54,793 bases of DNA from a virus, in the IMG/VR virus record IMGVR_UViG_3300046373_000093, positions 1 to 54,793 of that record; one strand, given 5' to 3'. Positions 3,168 through 51,989 of the stretch are shown in pieces; position 1 is the first letter of the stretch; each line of letters starts with the position of its first letter. The translations under genes and the position numbers were made by a program. The notes under the pieces were generated by a model. It searched no databases. It was not told the DNA's origin and saw nothing but the letters and a program-made list of their open reading frames with translations.

Positions 3168-4196
3168 ATGGGCCGGAAGCCAACGAAGCACGAAAATCTG
3201 CCGCCGCACATGCGCAAGCGCACGCGGAAATACGGGACGTATTACTATCTGGACACTGGCAAGACGCCCCGAAAGGAGATCCCGCTCGGGAGCGATTACA
3301 TCCTGGCCTTGAAAAAGTATGCCGAGCTCCACGAGATCGGACCAACCGCCGGCGCCACTTTCGGTGACCTCATCACCAAGTATGAGGCTGAGGCACTACC
3401 GAACCTGAAGCCGAACACGATCCGCGTCCAGAAGTCGGACATCAAGCACCTCCGCGAATATTTTAACGACGCGCCGCTGGATCAGATCGAGCCCGCATAC
3501 CTGGAGCGGTTCAAGCGCAAGCACAAGGACAAGCCCACCACGGCAAACCGGTGCCTGCGCTTGATCTCGACCATGTGGAACCTGGCGCGCAGCTGGGGCT
3601 ATACCAGCCTGCCAAATCCGCGCGCCGGCGTGAAGGGGCACAAGCTGCAGAGGCGCACCGTCTACATCACTGACGAGGTGTTCAATGCGGTCCATGGCCA
3701 GGGAAGCGCCCTACTGAAGGACGCTCTCGACCTGGCATACCTGACGGGTCAGCGGCCCGGGGACGCCTTGAGCATGAGCGAGCACGACATCATCGACGGG
3801 CATCTCGTCATCAAGGCCCAGGACAAGACTGGCAAGCCGCTCAGGATCCAGATCGTCGGTAAGCTCGCGGAAGTCATCGAGCGCATTCGCGCCCGGAAGA
3901 AGGGACTGAAGGTGGTGTCGACGGCACTGCTTGTGAATCTTCACGGCAAGAAACTGACGCCGGCCGTGCTGCGCAACCATTTCGAGGATGCGCGCGCCGC
4001 GGCTGCCAAGGCCAACCCGGAGCTTGCCGACCAGATCAAGGCAATGTGGTTCTACGACCTGCGCGCGAAGGCTGCCGACGACACCTCGGACGAGCGCGGC
4101 GACCAAGCGGCGAGCGACCTGCTGGGACACGAAACCGTTACTACGACGAAACGCCACTACCTGCGCCGTGGCAAAGTTGTCGCGCCGGTAAAGTGA
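3168..4196 (+). CDS. int: Tyrosine-type phage integrase
   Basis: A 342-residue site-specific recombinase that would join attP to a host tRNA-Arg gene. Residues 1-55 are basic and resemble an arm-type DNA-binding domain; 60-160 a core-binding SAM-like domain; 165-342 the catalytic domain. Visible catalytic positions are Arg196 (TGQRPGDA), Lys220, Arg299, His321 (LLGH) and the nucleophile Tyr331 (RHY). The usual His of the HxxR box is Tyr296 (FYDLR), an accepted variant. It is the last gene of the early operon, and its TGA touches the first arm-type repeat of attP. Confidence 0.95.
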   Translation: MGRKPTKHENLPPHMRKRTRKYGTYYYLDTGKTPRKEIPLGSDYILALKKYAELHEIGPTAGATFGDLITKYEAEALPNLKPNTIRVQKSDIKHLREYFNDAPLDQIEPAYLERFKRKHKDKPTTANRCLRLISTMWNLARSWGYTSLPNPRAGVKGHKLQRRTVYITDEVFNAVHGQGSALLKDALDLAYLTGQRPGDALSMSEHDIIDGHLVIKAQDKTGKPLRIQIVGKLAEVIERIRARKKGLKVVSTALLVNLHGKKLTPAVLRNHFEDARAAAAKANPELADQIKAMWFYDLRAKAADDTSDERGDQAASDLLGHETVTTTKRHYLRRGKVVAPVK

Positions 4197-4440
4197 ATTT
4201 TGCGGAACTACGCCCGAATTTGCGGAACTACGGCAGCTGTTGAGAACTACGCCAAGCGCTTGATTTTATTGGCCTGCCCAGCTGGGTTCGAACCAGCGAC
4301 CCTCAGCTTAGAAGGCTGATTAAAGAATGGCTTAACCATGCGGGTTTCAAGCCGTTTTTAGTTCCGCAAAAGTGACTTTATCCACAGTCCTTTTGCCCCG
4401 GAATGCAGGATTCTTAAAGCGTTTTGCGGAACTAAAAATG
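4196..4440. other. attP: attP: tRNA-Arg core flanked by five arm-type integrase sites
   Basis: Arm-type repeats with the core TTTGCGGAACTA lie at 4198-4210, 4219-4230 and (degenerate, only AGAACTACG kept) 4240-4251 on the integrase side, and at 4359-4371 (inverted) and 4422-4434 on the other. Between them is the 3' half of a tRNA-Arg at 4270-4320. The left repeats are about 20 bases apart, two helical turns. Arms on both sides are expected for an intact attP, not for attL or attR. The crossover is probably inside the anticodon-to-T-arm segment. Confidence 0.8.
4270..4320 (-). tRNA. 3' half of tRNA-Arg(UCU), attachment core, not a working gene
   Basis: Read on the minus strand this is an anticodon arm (TCAGC, loop CTTCTAA, GCTGA; anticodon TCT), a variable region, a T arm with GCTGG-TTCGAAC-CCAGC, an acceptor strand TGGGCAG, a G discriminator and CCA. 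No matching D arm or 5' acceptor (CTGCCCA) precedes it. Integration would use it to restore the 3' end of the host tRNA gene. Confidence 0.8.
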
Positions 4441-4743
4441 CCCGTCCGGCGGCCCGTATCCGATGATCTTTACCGACCACTCCTGCTCATACCCTACCCC
4501 GGCCTTGTCGCGCTCGATGCCCCGAAAGCGCATCATGTCGACGTGCATGGCGACGAGCTGGGCATACTCCAGCGCTGGGATGACCGGCCTCATGTGCTCG
4601 TCGTCCGGCTCGATCAGGATTGCGGTCGCGACGGTGCCGGCCATGGAAAAGCGCAGCTCACCCTCGAAGCCATCATCAGCGGCGATCTCTTGGGCCGTCC
4701 GCGGCGCGCCATTCTCGCGTAGGCATTTAACTATGCTGTACAT
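4432..4743 (-). CDS. SOS-controlled small protein, candidate anti-repressor
   Basis: A 103-residue protein of unknown family. The N terminus looks like a small helical domain (residues 1-25), and later there is an acidic Met-rich stretch around residues 46-72. No membrane segment is seen. Its ATG (4741-4743) lies inside a perfect LexA box (4736-4751). An extended -10 (TG-C-TATACT, hexamer 4755-4750) places the transcript start on or next to the A of the ATG, so the mRNA should be leaderless. SOS control of one isolated gene beside attP recalls Tum-type anti-repressors. That role is inferred from regulation and from the lack of a self-cleaving domain in the phage repressor. Confidence 0.7.
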   Translation of the reverse strand: MYSIVKCLRENGAPRTAQEIAADDGFEGELRFSMAGTVATAILIEPDDEHMRPVIPALEYAQLVAMHVDMMRFRGIERDKAGVGYEQEWSVKIIGYGPPDGHF

Positions 4744-4751
4744 TTATACAG
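4736..4751. promoter_or_regulatory. LexA (SOS) box over the start of the 4432-4743 gene
   Basis: The sequence is CTGT, eight bases, ACAG: an exact match to the gamma/betaproteobacterial LexA consensus, with TA-rich flanks. It covers the initiation codon and overlaps the -10 hexamer, so bound LexA would block polymerase. Confidence 0.85.
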
Positions 4752-4758
4752 TATAGCA
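4744..4758 (-). promoter_or_regulatory. Extended -10 promoter for the leaderless SOS gene
   Basis: On the minus strand AATGC precedes TATACT, giving a TGn extended -10. No good -35 is visible. Six bases separate the hexamer from the ATG, so initiation at +1 falls at or beside the A of the start codon. No Shine-Dalgarno sequence precedes the ATG. Confidence 0.6.
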
Positions 4759-4855: not shown

Positions 4856-5206
4856 ATGCAGCGACTTCTAGCCCTGCTCCTTGCCCTGCCGCTGGCGGCG
4901 ACCGCGGCGCCATACCCCTACACCATGAGCGGCGATCGGTTCGTCAAGATGATGAGCCCGCCTGACCCGACAGGCCAGGAATACCTCGACCGGGAAAAGG
5001 CCTACAGCTACCTCGACGGCGTGCGCGACAGCGCTGAGGGGCGCGTGTGGTGTGACGTCGACCAACTCAAGACGCCTGACCTGGCGTACGAGCTGGCGGA
5101 CGACATTGCCAAGCTGCCGGCGGTCGAGCGAAAGAAAAACGCATCCCTACTGCTGCTTGAGCAATTGAAGCGCCACTATCCGTGCCGGAATGGGAGCAAG
5201 AGATGA
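4856..5206 (+). CDS. Rap1a/Tai-like periplasmic immunity protein
   Basis: A 116-residue protein with a clean signal peptide (residues 1-17, MQRLLALLLALPLAATA), so it acts in the periplasm. The mature part has the fold signature of Rap1a/Tai immunity proteins: a helix with YLDGVRDSAEG, Cys66 followed by a polar helix, and a second Cys at 110 that could form a disulphide. These proteins neutralise peptidoglycan amidases delivered by type VI secretion. AGGAG precedes the ATG by 6 bases, and its stop overlaps the start of the Tae4-like gene. The pair runs against all neighbouring late genes and looks like lysogenic cargo. Confidence 0.75.
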   Translation: MQRLLALLLALPLAATAAPYPYTMSGDRFVKMMSPPDPTGQEYLDREKAYSYLDGVRDSAEGRVWCDVDQLKTPDLAYELADDIAKLPAVERKKNASLLLLEQLKRHYPCRNGSKR

Positions 5207-5664
5207 AGCCCTTCTTCGATATGGTCTGGCGAAATTATCCGCGCTCGGAGAAGCGTGAGCCGTTATTTGATGAGATCGGCTGGTCGGACATCAAGAACAA
5301 CGAGTCCTACAAAGACACCTGCGCAATCCGCATGAGCATAGCGTTGACGCGCGCCGGCGTGCCGCTGCCAGGCGCGAGCATGCGTGCGAAGGCTGGAACA
5401 ATCAGGGACGGTCGGATCGAGCCGCGCCAGCGTAAGCTATCGGACATCCTGAAGCAGATGTGGGGCAAGCCGGAGGTCTACGGCAGCGAGCGCGAAGCGC
5501 GCGACGGAATTGGCCACCGCAAGGGCGTGGTGTCGTTCTTCAGGATCGACGGCGGGCCTGGCGGGCACATCGATCTGGTGCACCCAGGCCCCAACGGATT
5601 TGTCGAGTGCGCGCGCAGTTGCTTCTTCTCGTCCGTGACGATCTGGTTCTGGCCGCTGGAATAA
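5203..5664 (+). CDS. Tae4-like peptidoglycan amidase (type VI effector family)
   Basis: A 153-residue protein whose start at 5203 overlaps the immunity gene stop (ATGA). A longer start at 5182 is less likely. It shows the Tae4 layout: Cys40 at the head of a helix (DTCAIRMSIALTRAG), a middle region with YGSEREA, and His122 in GGHIDLV, followed by a C-terminal Cys-x3-Cys pair. Tae4 enzymes cut the D-Glu to mDAP bond in peptidoglycan stems. The usual third catalytic acid is not obvious; Asp124 is a candidate. No export signal is present, so it would need T6SS or cell lysis to reach the wall. It could act as a toxin between lysogens and rivals or as an auxiliary lysis enzyme. Confidence 0.8.
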   Translation: MKPFFDMVWRNYPRSEKREPLFDEIGWSDIKNNESYKDTCAIRMSIALTRAGVPLPGASMRAKAGTIRDGRIEPRQRKLSDILKQMWGKPEVYGSEREARDGIGHRKGVVSFFRIDGGPGGHIDLVHPGPNGFVECARSCFFSSVTIWFWPLE

Positions 5665-5668
5665 CGCC

Positions 5669-5857
5669 ATGAAGCCGCGCACAGACCTCATCACAGCCAG
5701 CCGGGTCGACCTGACGCTGGCGCTACTCCCGCTGATCGGGTGGTGGGAGGCGTCATGGACGCTGGCGGCGAACGGCGTGCCGCTCGACGTCGCGGTGCGG
5801 GTGATGGTCGTGCCGGGCGCGCGGCGCACTATGTCGCTACCAGCATCTCCGGGGTGA
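5669..5857 (+). CDS. Doubtful small protein downstream of the amidase, 62 aa
   Basis: An ATG frame four bases after the Tae4-like stop, with only a weak ribosome site (GGAATAACGCC). Residues 15-27 and 38-50 are moderately hydrophobic. I recognise nothing. The remaining bases to 5897 hold a repeated GTGACGGT sequence and no other credible gene. It may be a remnant. Confidence 0.3.
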   Translation: MKPRTDLITASRVDLTLALLPLIGWWEASWTLAANGVPLDVAVRVMVVPGARRTMSLPASPG

Positions 5858-38773: not shown

Positions 38774-39272
38774 TGCGACGTCCCTCCAACCAGCGCATGG
38801 CGTTCTGCGCCGTTGCTTGCCCTTGTTTCCCGAGCTGCTTCGGCTCGGCCTGCTGGCTCGACAGTTCGGCGCGGCGCCGCTGCATCACCAGCGTGTCCCA
38901 TTGCTTGCGCAGCTTGACCGGCGACTGGATGTTCGCGCACCAAAATGAGTCCTGCTGCGCCCATCGGAACAGGCCGCCGATCTCCTTTCGCGTACGGCCG
39001 TCGCACTCGCGCATGAGGCGAACATCGCGCGCCCAAGTCGTGAAGTTCGGGCCCTTGGCGGTCGGATTCACGGCACGCAGAACGTCGAACATCCAGCGGG
39101 CGCACTCCTCGTCCTCTTTGTCGCCCGGCTTCTGCTCACGCTTCTCCTTTGTTGGCACGAGCTGCACTGGGATGCTTTCGGCGGCATCCAGCAACGCCAG
39201 CAGCGTGGCCGAGTCGACGGTTACGGCCGGCAGCGACTGCGCGGCCTGGCGGAGGGCTTCGCGGCTAAGCAT
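38763..39272 (-). CDS. Phage replication protein (O/primosome-like), 169 aa
   Basis: An N-terminal helix region (1-55) is followed by EECARWMFDVLRAVNPTAKGPNFTTWARDVRLMRECDG in two segments, then RKEIGGLFRWAQQDSFWCANIQSP and KLRKQWD. This text is typical of replication initiators or helicase loaders of Burkholderiales phages. No own helicase or polymerase is present, so host DnaB and Pol III are presumably recruited. Confidence 0.75.
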   Translation of the reverse strand: MLSREALRQAAQSLPAVTVDSATLLALLDAAESIPVQLVPTKEKREQKPGDKEDEECARWMFDVLRAVNPTAKGPNFTTWARDVRLMRECDGRTRKEIGGLFRWAQQDSFWCANIQSPVKLRKQWDTLVMQRRRAELSSQQAEPKQLGKQGQATAQNAMRWLEGRRNAA

Positions 39273-39990
39273 GGGCGGCCTCCTCGCGCTGCTTCAGCTG
39301 CCACTTCGCCAACTCGCCGGCGACCCACTCCACGCCCTTGGAAGTGAACTTGGCCGTGCTGTAGGCGTGACCGCTGATCTGCGCGGTGCCAGCCCGCACC
39401 TCGAACCGGCCGGCCTCGATGTGCTGAGCATGCGCCGTCCATTCGCCGTTCAGGACGTACATGATCTTGGTGGCTCGCAGGAACTCGCGGAACTCCGGCT
39501 CCTTGACTTTTAGGAGCTTCGCCACCTGACGGAAGGTCATCAGACCAGTGGATTCCACGTAGCGGCCGACGAACTCGACGGCCGGTGCCGCGGCGGCGAG
39601 TTGCTCGGCCTGCGCCGTGATCACATCCTGCTGGTCAGCGGCCAAGCGCAGCGCCTCGGCGAAGGTGCGCGGCAGGGCCGGCACCGGCACCGGCGGCGCA
39701 CCGCGCTCCAGCTCTTGCCAGCGGTCGATGATCCGCGCACGCAGGTCGGCGTTATATCCCGAGACGACCACCAGCGTGTCGCGGAACGACAGCAGGAACT
39801 CGCTGTAGGTCTGGCCGTTCTGCGGGTGGTGGTAAGGGGTCTCGTTTCCAGCAATGACACCCTCAGCGATGAGGCGCCGTATGGTTTTCAGAACATTGTC
39901 GTGCGAGCTCCTGGTCAACTCAGCAATCTCGCGGCTCGACATCGTGACGTCGGCGCCGACGGTGGTTTGCAATGCAAGAATGCTTCCCAT
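39265..39990 (-). CDS. Rha/KilAC-type antirepressor, 241 aa
   Basis: Residues 12-90 are a pRha domain (MSSREIAELTRSSHDNVLKTIRRL, then FLLSFRDTLVVVSGYNADLRARIIDRWQELE), and 135-225 a KilA-C/ANT-type DNA-binding region (FRQVAKLLKVKEPEFREFL, STAKFTSKG). Such proteins regulate phage development, often by opposing repressors. The ATG at 39990 has AAAGGA upstream. In this genome it lies at the head of the replication genes. Confidence 0.85.
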   Translation of the reverse strand: MGSILALQTTVGADVTMSSREIAELTRSSHDNVLKTIRRLIAEGVIAGNETPYHHPQNGQTYSEFLLSFRDTLVVVSGYNADLRARIIDRWQELERGAPPVPVPALPRTFAEALRLAADQQDVITAQAEQLAAAAPAVEFVGRYVESTGLMTFRQVAKLLKVKEPEFREFLRATKIMYVLNGEWTAHAQHIEAGRFEVRAGTAQISGHAYSTAKFTSKGVEWVAGELAKWQLKQREEAAHA

Positions 39991-48425: not shown

Positions 48426-49016
48426 ATGAAAGAATCGACAAACCTGGTCGACCTGGCCGCTCGGCTAATTTGGTCCCGGGAACAAAAGGGATGGACTCAA
48501 GAGCAATTGGCGAATGCAGCCGATGTGTCGCAGTCGACTATCGGCAACCTTGAGTCGCGCATACGCCGCACTGCGCGCAAGCTAGCTGTGATTGCCAACG
48601 TGTTGGATGTGAACGCTTATTGGCTTGCGACGGGTGAGGGGTCGCCGCGCGATCAGCCGGACGATCCCCTTCTCGCGCAGGTTGCTGAACTTAGCCCGGC
48701 GGGGCGCAGTGTTGTCGCCACAGTCGTGGCGGGCCTGCGAGGCGTATCGGTGGGCGCACTACCAACTGCCAGCACAACTGCAGCCGAGCTCAGTGCGTAC
48801 GAAAAACGCATATTGGAGTTGATTCAGAAGCTGAACGACCGATCCAGAGAGACGGCCGAAGATCAGCTAAAGGAGATCCTGAGGGAGCAGCGGCAACACG
48901 CCTACCGAGAATCGGAATCGCCCGCCGAGCGAGAGCGTCTCGAGCGGACGGTAGCAAGCAAGACCCACCCTCTTGGCGTAATCGAAACACCTCCGAAGCG
49001 GCAGCGAAAGTCCTAG
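48426..49016 (+). CDS. CI-like phage repressor without an autoprotease domain, 196 aa
   Basis: Residues 5-75 are an XRE HTH (LIWSREQKGWTQEQLANAADVSQSTIGNLE), then ANVLDVNAYWLATGEG, typical of CI-type repressors. The rest (about 85-196) is a helix and coiled coil rich in Glu/Arg. There is no S24/LexA-like serine-lysine domain or Ala-Gly cleavage site. It would hold lysogeny by binding the CAC-N4-GTG operators. The -10 TATACC at 48411 leaves only a few bases before the ATG at 48426, so the mRNA is nearly leaderless. Relief of repression must use another protein. Confidence 0.82.
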   Translation: MKESTNLVDLAARLIWSREQKGWTQEQLANAADVSQSTIGNLESRIRRTARKLAVIANVLDVNAYWLATGEGSPRDQPDDPLLAQVAELSPAGRSVVATVVAGLRGVSVGALPTASTTAAELSAYEKRILELIQKLNDRSRETAEDQLKEILREQRQHAYRESESPAERERLERTVASKTHPLGVIETPPKRQRKS

Positions 49017-49079: not shown

Positions 49080-49376
49080 ATGTCCTCGCACGAGCAAGAT
49101 AGCCCGAAAGCCAGTGCCGAAATCATCGACTTCACCGCGTACAAAAACAAACCGTTGATCGACGTCCTTGAGTCCGCGCTCGCCGACGCAAAGGCGGGGC
49201 GGATCGGCGGCGCGATTCTGGTGGTTGAGCGAGAAGGCCACCACCATGGAGTCGTCGTGGTTGGATCGTACGAAGACAATGCGCGGCAGGTCTGCGGCAT
49301 CGCTGGCGAGATATTCGTCGAGTTCCTACCGAAGACCCTGGACCGGCCTCAAATCATCGGGAAGCCACCCGCTTGA
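49080..49376 (+). CDS. Small protein downstream of the repressor, 98 aa
   Basis: CGGAGA lies 6 bases before the ATG. Residues 15-90 form an alpha/beta unit (DVLESALADAKAGRIGGAILVVEREGHHHGVVVVG). It is about 60 bases after the repressor gene and may share its transcript or use a TATATC promoter-like site at 49050. Comparable genes follow repressors in other Burkholderiales prophages. Function unknown. Confidence 0.65.
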   Translation: MSSHEQDSPKASAEIIDFTAYKNKPLIDVLESALADAKAGRIGGAILVVEREGHHHGVVVVGSYEDNARQVCGIAGEIFVEFLPKTLDRPQIIGKPPA

Positions 49377-49542
49377 ACGGCACCACTTTCGAGGGCGGCT
49401 GAGCCTCCGCCACGTCACTCCGCGGGTACTTGCGCGCTGAATTTTCACATTGTCTGGTGTGCAGGACCAGGGCGCGCTCATCCATCATGTTTAATGCTGC
49501 AAGTGCTCTCCGAATGTATTCTTGGCGCTCCATGGTAACCAT
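49354..49542 (-). CDS. Second LexA-controlled small gene, 62 aa
   Basis: A 62-residue protein with a helical N-terminal half (ERQEYIRRALAALNMMDERALVLHTRQ) and a basic polar tail. It is transcribed toward the repressor genes. A perfect LexA box lies 22 bases upstream, over the -35 region, with -10 TAATAT at 49554-49549; the expected start is at the A of the ATG at 49542, so it is also leaderless. An ATG at 49533 is an alternative. With 4432-4743 it forms a pair of SOS genes that could control induction. Confidence 0.65.
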   Translation of the reverse strand: MVTMERQEYIRRALAALNMMDERALVLHTRQCENSARKYPRSDVAEAQPPSKVVPFKRVASR

Positions 49543-49563
49543 TCTTATATTAAGTTTATGGAA

Positions 49564-49579
49564 CTGTATGGATGTACAG
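49564..49579. promoter_or_regulatory. Second LexA (SOS) box
   Basis: CTGT, eight bases, ACAG, an exact consensus match with AA and TA flanks. It overlaps the -35 of the leftward promoter that serves 49354-49542. Confidence 0.82.
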
Positions 49580-50017
49580 TAGTCATATTCCTACGCACTT
49601 AGGATACATCTGACCTGGCAACGTGGCAATGTAACAGTTGGTTTTGTTTAATAGCCTATTTCTCTCGAAATCACCCATAACACCACATGGGAGCTATCAT
49701 TTTATTGTTGAACTAAAGATTAAATTACTATCTTTTAGAGATCATTTACGCGAACTTAGTTGATTACTTGTGTGTTATATATCATTGTGTCATGAATTTT
49801 CTTTTTTGACATAGCGGCTTTTCACAATCGTTACTTTACGTGATTTTCGGTATTCCTGTGCGTTGTTGTTCAATTTCAATATTGCAATTACGTTTCCACT
49901 GTGCCAAGCTACCAAAAGTGTCCAATATGTAACCACGCTTACAATTTTCTCGCGGGAAAGCCTTCAGAGTGAAGGCAAAAACGACAGTCTACATGTCTTT
50001 TGCTCAACAATGTGGGA
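49580..50017. other. AT-rich non-coding stretch, about 440 bp
   Basis: Conspicuously AT-rich compared with the rest of the genome and free of credible frames. It has long T and A runs and several promoter-like hexamers (TTGACA, TATATC). It is the kind of sequence bound by H-NS-like silencers and marks the left edge of a cargo block. Confidence 0.6.
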
Positions 50018-51239: not shown

Positions 51240-51989
51240 ATGACAACAAACGTCCTTGATTGTGTGAATGGTGTGCTGTCTACTGACTCGCGCTGGTCGT
51301 CCGATAACGGAGACTGGCTCGCATATGTAGATGATACCCAGTACGACAAAATCGCATTTACCGGAAGGGCTGGCTTCCTGTTCGCAGGCGACATGCCCCC
51401 TATCGATGAGTGGAAGCAGTACGTCGCTGGGGGCATGAAGAAAAATGCGCGGCCCGTCCGCCGCGCTTGGGTGCCCGGTTCCAGGATCTCAATTATTCAG
51501 GTTGAGCTCGCTACGGGTCGGATCGTGTTTAAGTCGCATAATTTTCCGACTACATCGTTCGGCGCGTCTGTCCGAGCCCTGTTTGCAGGAACAGGCGCTC
51601 TTCATGCGAAGACTTGCTGGGACGAAAAGAAATGCGCAAAGACCGCGATTAAAAGTGCAGCCGAGGAAGATATGCGCAGTGGCGGGAGCGTCATCTACCT
51701 TGACCGTAAAACGCGAGAAAACAACGCTGCAAATACAGCGACAGCTGAATCTGTTCGAGAACAGTTAAAAGACAGGGGGTTCATCATGAATGTTGCAGAT
51801 AAGAACACAAAAGTATCGCTCAAAGATGCAGCGAATGACGTTTCGAACCCAGCAGCGCAGGCTTTTGCAAAAGCGGTAATGTCGGGCGCGGCGCCGCTCA
51901 ATGCTCCGTTTCCTGGCATGGACGAGCCATGGGCAGAAGAGAAATATGCTGAGCTGGATGTCGCCCTATCCGAATTTGAAGAAGACTGA
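51240..51989 (+). CDS. Proteasome-like Ntn-hydrolase candidate, 249 aa
   Basis: If translation starts at ATG 51240 the protein begins Met-Thr-Thr; Met removal would expose Thr1, as in HslV and the proteasome beta subunit. Counting from Thr1, Asp15 (STDSRW) and Lys36 (YDKIAF) take the places of the catalytic Asp17 and Lys33, and GFLFAGD (Gly49) that of Gly47. A later GASVRALFAGTGALHAKTCW recalls the second proteasome sheet. Earlier starts (51195, 51198) would hide the Thr. It lies in the cargo region beside the repressor, so defence or exclusion is likely. A rightward terminator follows. Confidence 0.65.
   Translation: MTTNVLDCVNGVLSTDSRWSSDNGDWLAYVDDTQYDKIAFTGRAGFLFAGDMPPIDEWKQYVAGGMKKNARPVRRAWVPGSRISIIQVELATGRIVFKSHNFPTTSFGASVRALFAGTGALHAKTCWDEKKCAKTAIKSAAEEDMRSGGSVIYLDRKTRENNAANTATAESVREQLKDRGFIMNVADKNTKVSLKDAANDVSNPAAQAFAKAVMSGAAPLNAPFPGMDEPWAEEKYAELDVALSEFEED

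Follow-up and report, generated by a model that had tools for sequence, protein, structure and literature searches.

The window examined in this report, the full 54,793-nucleotide stretch of viral DNA, carries on its minus strand a small ORF that lies tail to tail with a tyrosine integrase gene and has a LexA-type box over its start codon. We refer to this ORF as the SOS gene. On the basis of comparative sequence analysis, its layout, conservation, coding status, and neighborhood are established, and the features that bear on its function are as follows.

3168 to 4196, plus strand: tyrosine integrase gene (int), tail to tail with the SOS gene (PF00589, 1.2e-11).
4270 to 4318, minus strand: attP core, a 3′ portion of the gene for tRNA-Arg(TCT), common to relatives L136, L144, and L157.
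4432 to 4743, minus strand: SOS gene, 103 amino acids, ATG start (ORF, relatives, dN/dS, and AF2 model).
4734 to 4753, no strand assigned: putative LexA operator over the start codon (sequence, PWM score, kept in most relatives).
4750 to 4758, minus strand: extended −10 element TGC-TATACT (sequence, column conservation in 40 relatives).
48426 to 49016, plus strand: repressor gene with a helix-turn-helix (HTH) domain and without an S24 domain (HTH_3, 2.6e-10).
49354 to 49533, minus strand: 59-amino-acid ORF behind the second box and near the repressor gene (homologue and box in G016).
49562 to 49581, no strand assigned: second strong predicted LexA box, in the immunity region (20-mer search, PWM score 21.0).

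On the minus strand, the start region reads TGC-TATACT-GTATAA-ATGTACAGCATAG, in which an extended −10 element (TATACT at 4750–4755, preceded by TGC at 4756–4758) is followed by a 6-base spacer and then the ATG. This TGCTATACTGTATAA-ATG arrangement places the extended −10 immediately 5′ of the start codon. Because the −10 ends 6 nt 5′ of the ATG, transcription is predicted to begin at the first base of the start codon. In addition, a perfect CTGT-N8-ACAG match at 4736–4751 spans the ATG at 4741–4743. An earlier note on this DNA had proposed a LexA box over the ATG and a −10 element that sets the transcript start there; the first is borne out by the perfect match and by the highest matrix score in the window, and the second agrees with the predicted promoter geometry.

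Perfect 16-mers of this type occur three times in the window, and sites with one mismatch number 17 against 14.9 expected, so a perfect 16-mer by itself says little. A search for the longer pattern TACTGT-N8-ACAGTA with at most two mismatches returned only two sites in the window, the SOS-gene box and a second box at 49562–49581, and the reversed control pattern returned none. With a LexA position weight matrix (PWM) built from Escherichia coli boxes, whose scores serve as a guide only, the SOS-gene box scores 22.9 and the second box 21.0, followed by a next-best site at 8.3; the best score in 20 shuffles was 14.2. The third perfect 16-mer (51579, within an ORF) scores 3.9 and was set aside as a chance occurrence.

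Scans of IMG/VR yielded 6 close relatives and then approximately 37 others, the most distant at about 40% identity, all from uncultured phages. Homologues were absent from scans of genome contigs, and tblastn searches of cultured phages and plasmids gave none, apart from chance matches antisense to structural genes. We aligned 40 nonredundant members at the ATG, excluding the divergent L022, L025, L041, and L068, which had been found with a DNA pattern containing most of the box. Some loci were fetched by peptide patterns including MYSIVK, and thus the N terminus is over-represented by selection, while the upstream bases are unaffected.

Among the 40 members the extended −10 and the ATG are conserved, and sequence farther 5′ is variable. 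The exact CTGT half-site is present in 27 and the exact ACAG half-site in 35, and CTG[TG]-N8-ACAG is centered on the ATG in 32, leaving 8 without it. Judged from the six closest relatives alone, the left half-site had seemed unconserved, an impression overturned by the wider family. Matrix scores of at least 15, values also seen among E. coli boxes, are reached by 31 of the 40. No member has a Shine–Dalgarno core (0/40), and in 14 a stop codon immediately precedes the ATG. Given this retained layout, the proposal in the earlier note that the gene is leaderless and LexA-controlled is well supported on sequence grounds, and we regard SOS control together with leaderless expression of the family as highly probable. 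The same predicted leaderless start, TATACTG-N5-ATGTACAG, was also observed at an ORF for a UmuD-like S24 peptidase in L086 (1667–2110). Elsewhere in the window, the ORF at 51240–51986 matches the HslV peptidase family in PHROG (phrog_1040, 1e-9) and has zero Pfam matches.

The box might instead be incidental, in that TATACT and the codons for M-Y-S compose a LexA-like palindrome over a gene that is expressed constitutively. With the −10 element and M-Y-S fixed, the GT that follows TATACT is all that can still vary, and some members keep the gene without the box. However, G occupies position −6 in 35 of 40 members and T position −5 in 27 of 40 amid variable neighboring bases, and the matrix scores resemble those of real E. 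coli sites. Moreover, members whose second codon specifies His (CAC) rather than Tyr still keep the ACAG half-site intact. On the tree, the box is found in 36 of 44 members and is missing from L004, L008, L142, and a five-member clade carrying TACACTC, a distribution that requires at least three or four changes; in this clade both halves are gone, lost together. We therefore judge an incidental box to be unlikely. All of the box-less members retain the leaderless layout, which indicates that SOS control is not essential for every member.

The product is clearly under purifying selection among sequences near the window: Nei–Gojobori dN/dS values against the window gene are 0.09 to 0.31 for eight relatives, and other frames give higher values. 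The 103-residue protein has zero matches in Pfam, NCBIfam, and PDB sequence searches. Of the 44 members, 35 match a PHROG profile without an assigned function (phrog_5560; best E 8e-7), with a nearly full-length match in L138, and the window gene matches it only at E 0.075 and only in its second half. The statement in the earlier note that the protein belongs to no recognized family holds, this profile being a remote match. AF2 modeling with 44 sequences predicts a small β-barrel (pLDDT 91.8) with strands at residues 2–7, 26–35, 38–44, 58–67, 70–78, and 84–95 and a short helix at 17–22; modeling with 7 sequences gave a poor model. No DNA-binding domain is seen in the family searches or in the AF2 model. 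The best Foldseek match is a PH/RanBP-like barrel (PDB 2y8f; TM approximately 0.5), which at E 0.011 and 13% identity is below significance and is not evidence of kinship. Nothing significant was found among viral models.

The earlier note had singled out the SOS gene as a prime candidate for a new anti-repressor, a protein made during SOS that binds the non-cleavable repressor encoded at 48426–49016 and induces the prophage; GfoA/GftA and Tum would be parallels. Part of the premise stands: the repressor carries an HTH_3 domain, and an S24 domain is absent both from it and from the whole record, consistent with a repressor that cannot cleave itself. The predicted LexA control of the SOS gene also fits this role, and known LexA-controlled anti-repressors are likewise small proteins (PMC3121763). 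However, nearly identical SOS genes accompany repressors that are unrelated or alike only in the HTH region. Specifically, G008 and G009 have SOS genes that are 94% identical and repressors that are 28% identical (an HTH-level match), and the SOS gene of the window shares 87% identity with that of G001 although their repressors do not match, with the caveat that in some records the principal repressor may be a protein other than the HTH protein compared. The gene also accompanies repressors of the other kind, since S24 is encoded in 15 of 46 carrier records and shares a frame with HTH in at least 12, whose HTH-S24 repressors should, from their domain content, self-cleave. Furthermore, in 34 records of at least 35 kb, which may be fragments, the box occurs about as often among those that encode S24 (11 of 14) as among those that lack it (17 of 20; Fisher p 0.67). 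Thus, the box is independent of S24, and we found neither an association of the SOS gene with non-cleavable repressors nor co-evolution with a cognate repressor. The gene also adjoins int rather than the repressor gene. Taken together, these observations make an anti-repressor role improbable for the SOS gene.

A better-placed ORF with predicted LexA control also exists in the window. In a search of 34 records, many carried two LexA boxes, the SOS-gene box plus another within the immunity region, and the reversed control pattern was almost absent. The 59-residue ORF behind the second box is 49% identical to an ORF in G016 that has a box at matching spacing, a resemblance that involves these two phages only. 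The G016 homologue of the 103-residue gene has lost its box, and the repressors of the two phages match in their C-terminal parts (36% over residues 123–195). On sequence grounds, this ORF is a better candidate for an anti-repressor than the 103-residue gene, and the search for such a factor shifts to this specific ORF beside the repressor gene. The window also encodes a Rha-ANT (KilAC) regulatory protein at 39265–39990 on the minus strand. ANT is a known anti-repressor domain, and either this protein or the 59-residue ORF would be a more natural candidate than the SOS gene. Separately, a LexA-type box lies 71 bp 5′ of an HTH-S24 repressor-like gene in L198, L200, L201, and L205.

The genes that flank the SOS gene bear on a possible role in integration. 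A 3′ fragment of tRNA-Arg (anticodon TCT) at 4270–4318 sits between the SOS gene and int in the window and likewise in L136, L144, and L157, which agrees with the placement of the gene next to attP in the earlier note. At most of the loci with an identified int, this gene is the convergent neighbor of the SOS gene, at distances ranging from a 4-base overlap of the ORF ends (L135, L137, L148, and L152) to less than 2 kb. Because of this tight tail-to-tail linkage, the role of the SOS gene may be tied to integration. One such role would be that of a recombination directionality factor (Xis) made during SOS, given that the gene lies near attP and that induction requires excision. However, the neighboring integrases form three similarity clusters, and SOS genes that are 94 to 95% identical adjoin integrases without significant similarity (L134/L135 and L136/L137), so the gene is not tied to one integrase type. 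Xis proteins have a winged-helix fold, which the predicted barrel does not resemble. We therefore consider an excisionase very unlikely. It is highly improbable that the transcript rather than the protein matters, with SOS transcription running antisense into the convergent and sometimes overlapping int gene to interfere with it, because selection acts strongly at the protein level and because attP intervenes in the tRNA-type phages, so that int would not be downstream in the prophage.

Upstream of the SOS gene are lysis genes and a metallophosphoesterase gene; the window has, in between and divergent from the SOS gene, a Rap1a-Tae4 pair along with a 62-residue ORF. The pair (4856–5664) encodes a Rap1a immunity protein (Pfam, 1e-9) and a Tae4 type VI secretion amidase (3.5e-14) and constitutes phage cargo; L005 has an Hcp gene at the matching place. 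The 62-residue ORF (5669–5857) belongs to a family of 53 to 85 residues that occurs in 17 other loci and whose members all lie on the opposite strand from the SOS gene, with the motif RTD..TA..VD...GVP.EVAARVL..P..RR and zero matches in Pfam or PHROG.

Because the accompanying repressors and integrases are so varied, the product is probably an accessory protein of a general kind, triggered by DNA damage, rather than a dedicated anti-repressor. We favor, with a probability of roughly 0.6, the interpretation that the SOS gene is a LexA-repressed, leaderless accessory gene of temperate phages whose product acts on the host or on a general target. In a lysogen, LexA would cover the DNA from the −10 element through codon 3 and silence the gene. 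Upon DNA damage, RecA would trigger LexA cleavage, and polymerase would begin transcription at the first base of the ATG. The leaderless mRNA would then yield the predicted β-barrel protein of 96 to 103 residues at once, without dependence on the phage repressor. Most likely, this product would have a host or general target while SOS is under way and the prophage exits, making the gene an SOS-inducible moron, and we propose that this target is not the repressor or integrase of the phage itself.

A more specific version of this model, which we offer only tentatively, is that many otherwise different temperate phages share an SOS effector that is independent of repressor and integrase and that acts on one conserved host process at prophage exit. 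Because the operator is written into the first codons, the first three residues (M-Y/H-S) of such an effector would be dictated by the operator rather than by the protein.

Phage genes under the direct control of LexA are already known. No paper describing a leaderless family whose operator straddles the start codon was found in the literature searched, and this family of more than 40 leaderless genes, which has its operator over the start codon whatever the type of repressor or integrase it accompanies, seems not to have been reported before. Such a family suggests that uncultured phages have a general function in the SOS phase, and it would allow leaderless translation under SOS control to be tested cleanly.

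The Gifsy proteins GfoA/GftA, Tum of phage 186, and AntC of N15 are LexA-controlled anti-repressors, and published examples, GfoA/GftA and Tum among them, target the cognate repressor (PMC3121763). Like these systems, the SOS gene encodes a small phage protein with predicted direct LexA control, and the window repressor is non-cleavable. In a comparison made by description rather than by sequence, those proteins bind their cognate repressor, whereas the SOS gene is conserved among phages with unrelated repressors and adjoins int. A second precedent is provided by SOS-controlled accessory genes of prophages and hosts, such as prophage dinI and umuD. The predicted features shared with this type are a LexA box over the promoter and expression that is independent of the phage repressor. 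The SOS gene differs in that it encodes another protein family and in that its operator enters a leaderless coding sequence.
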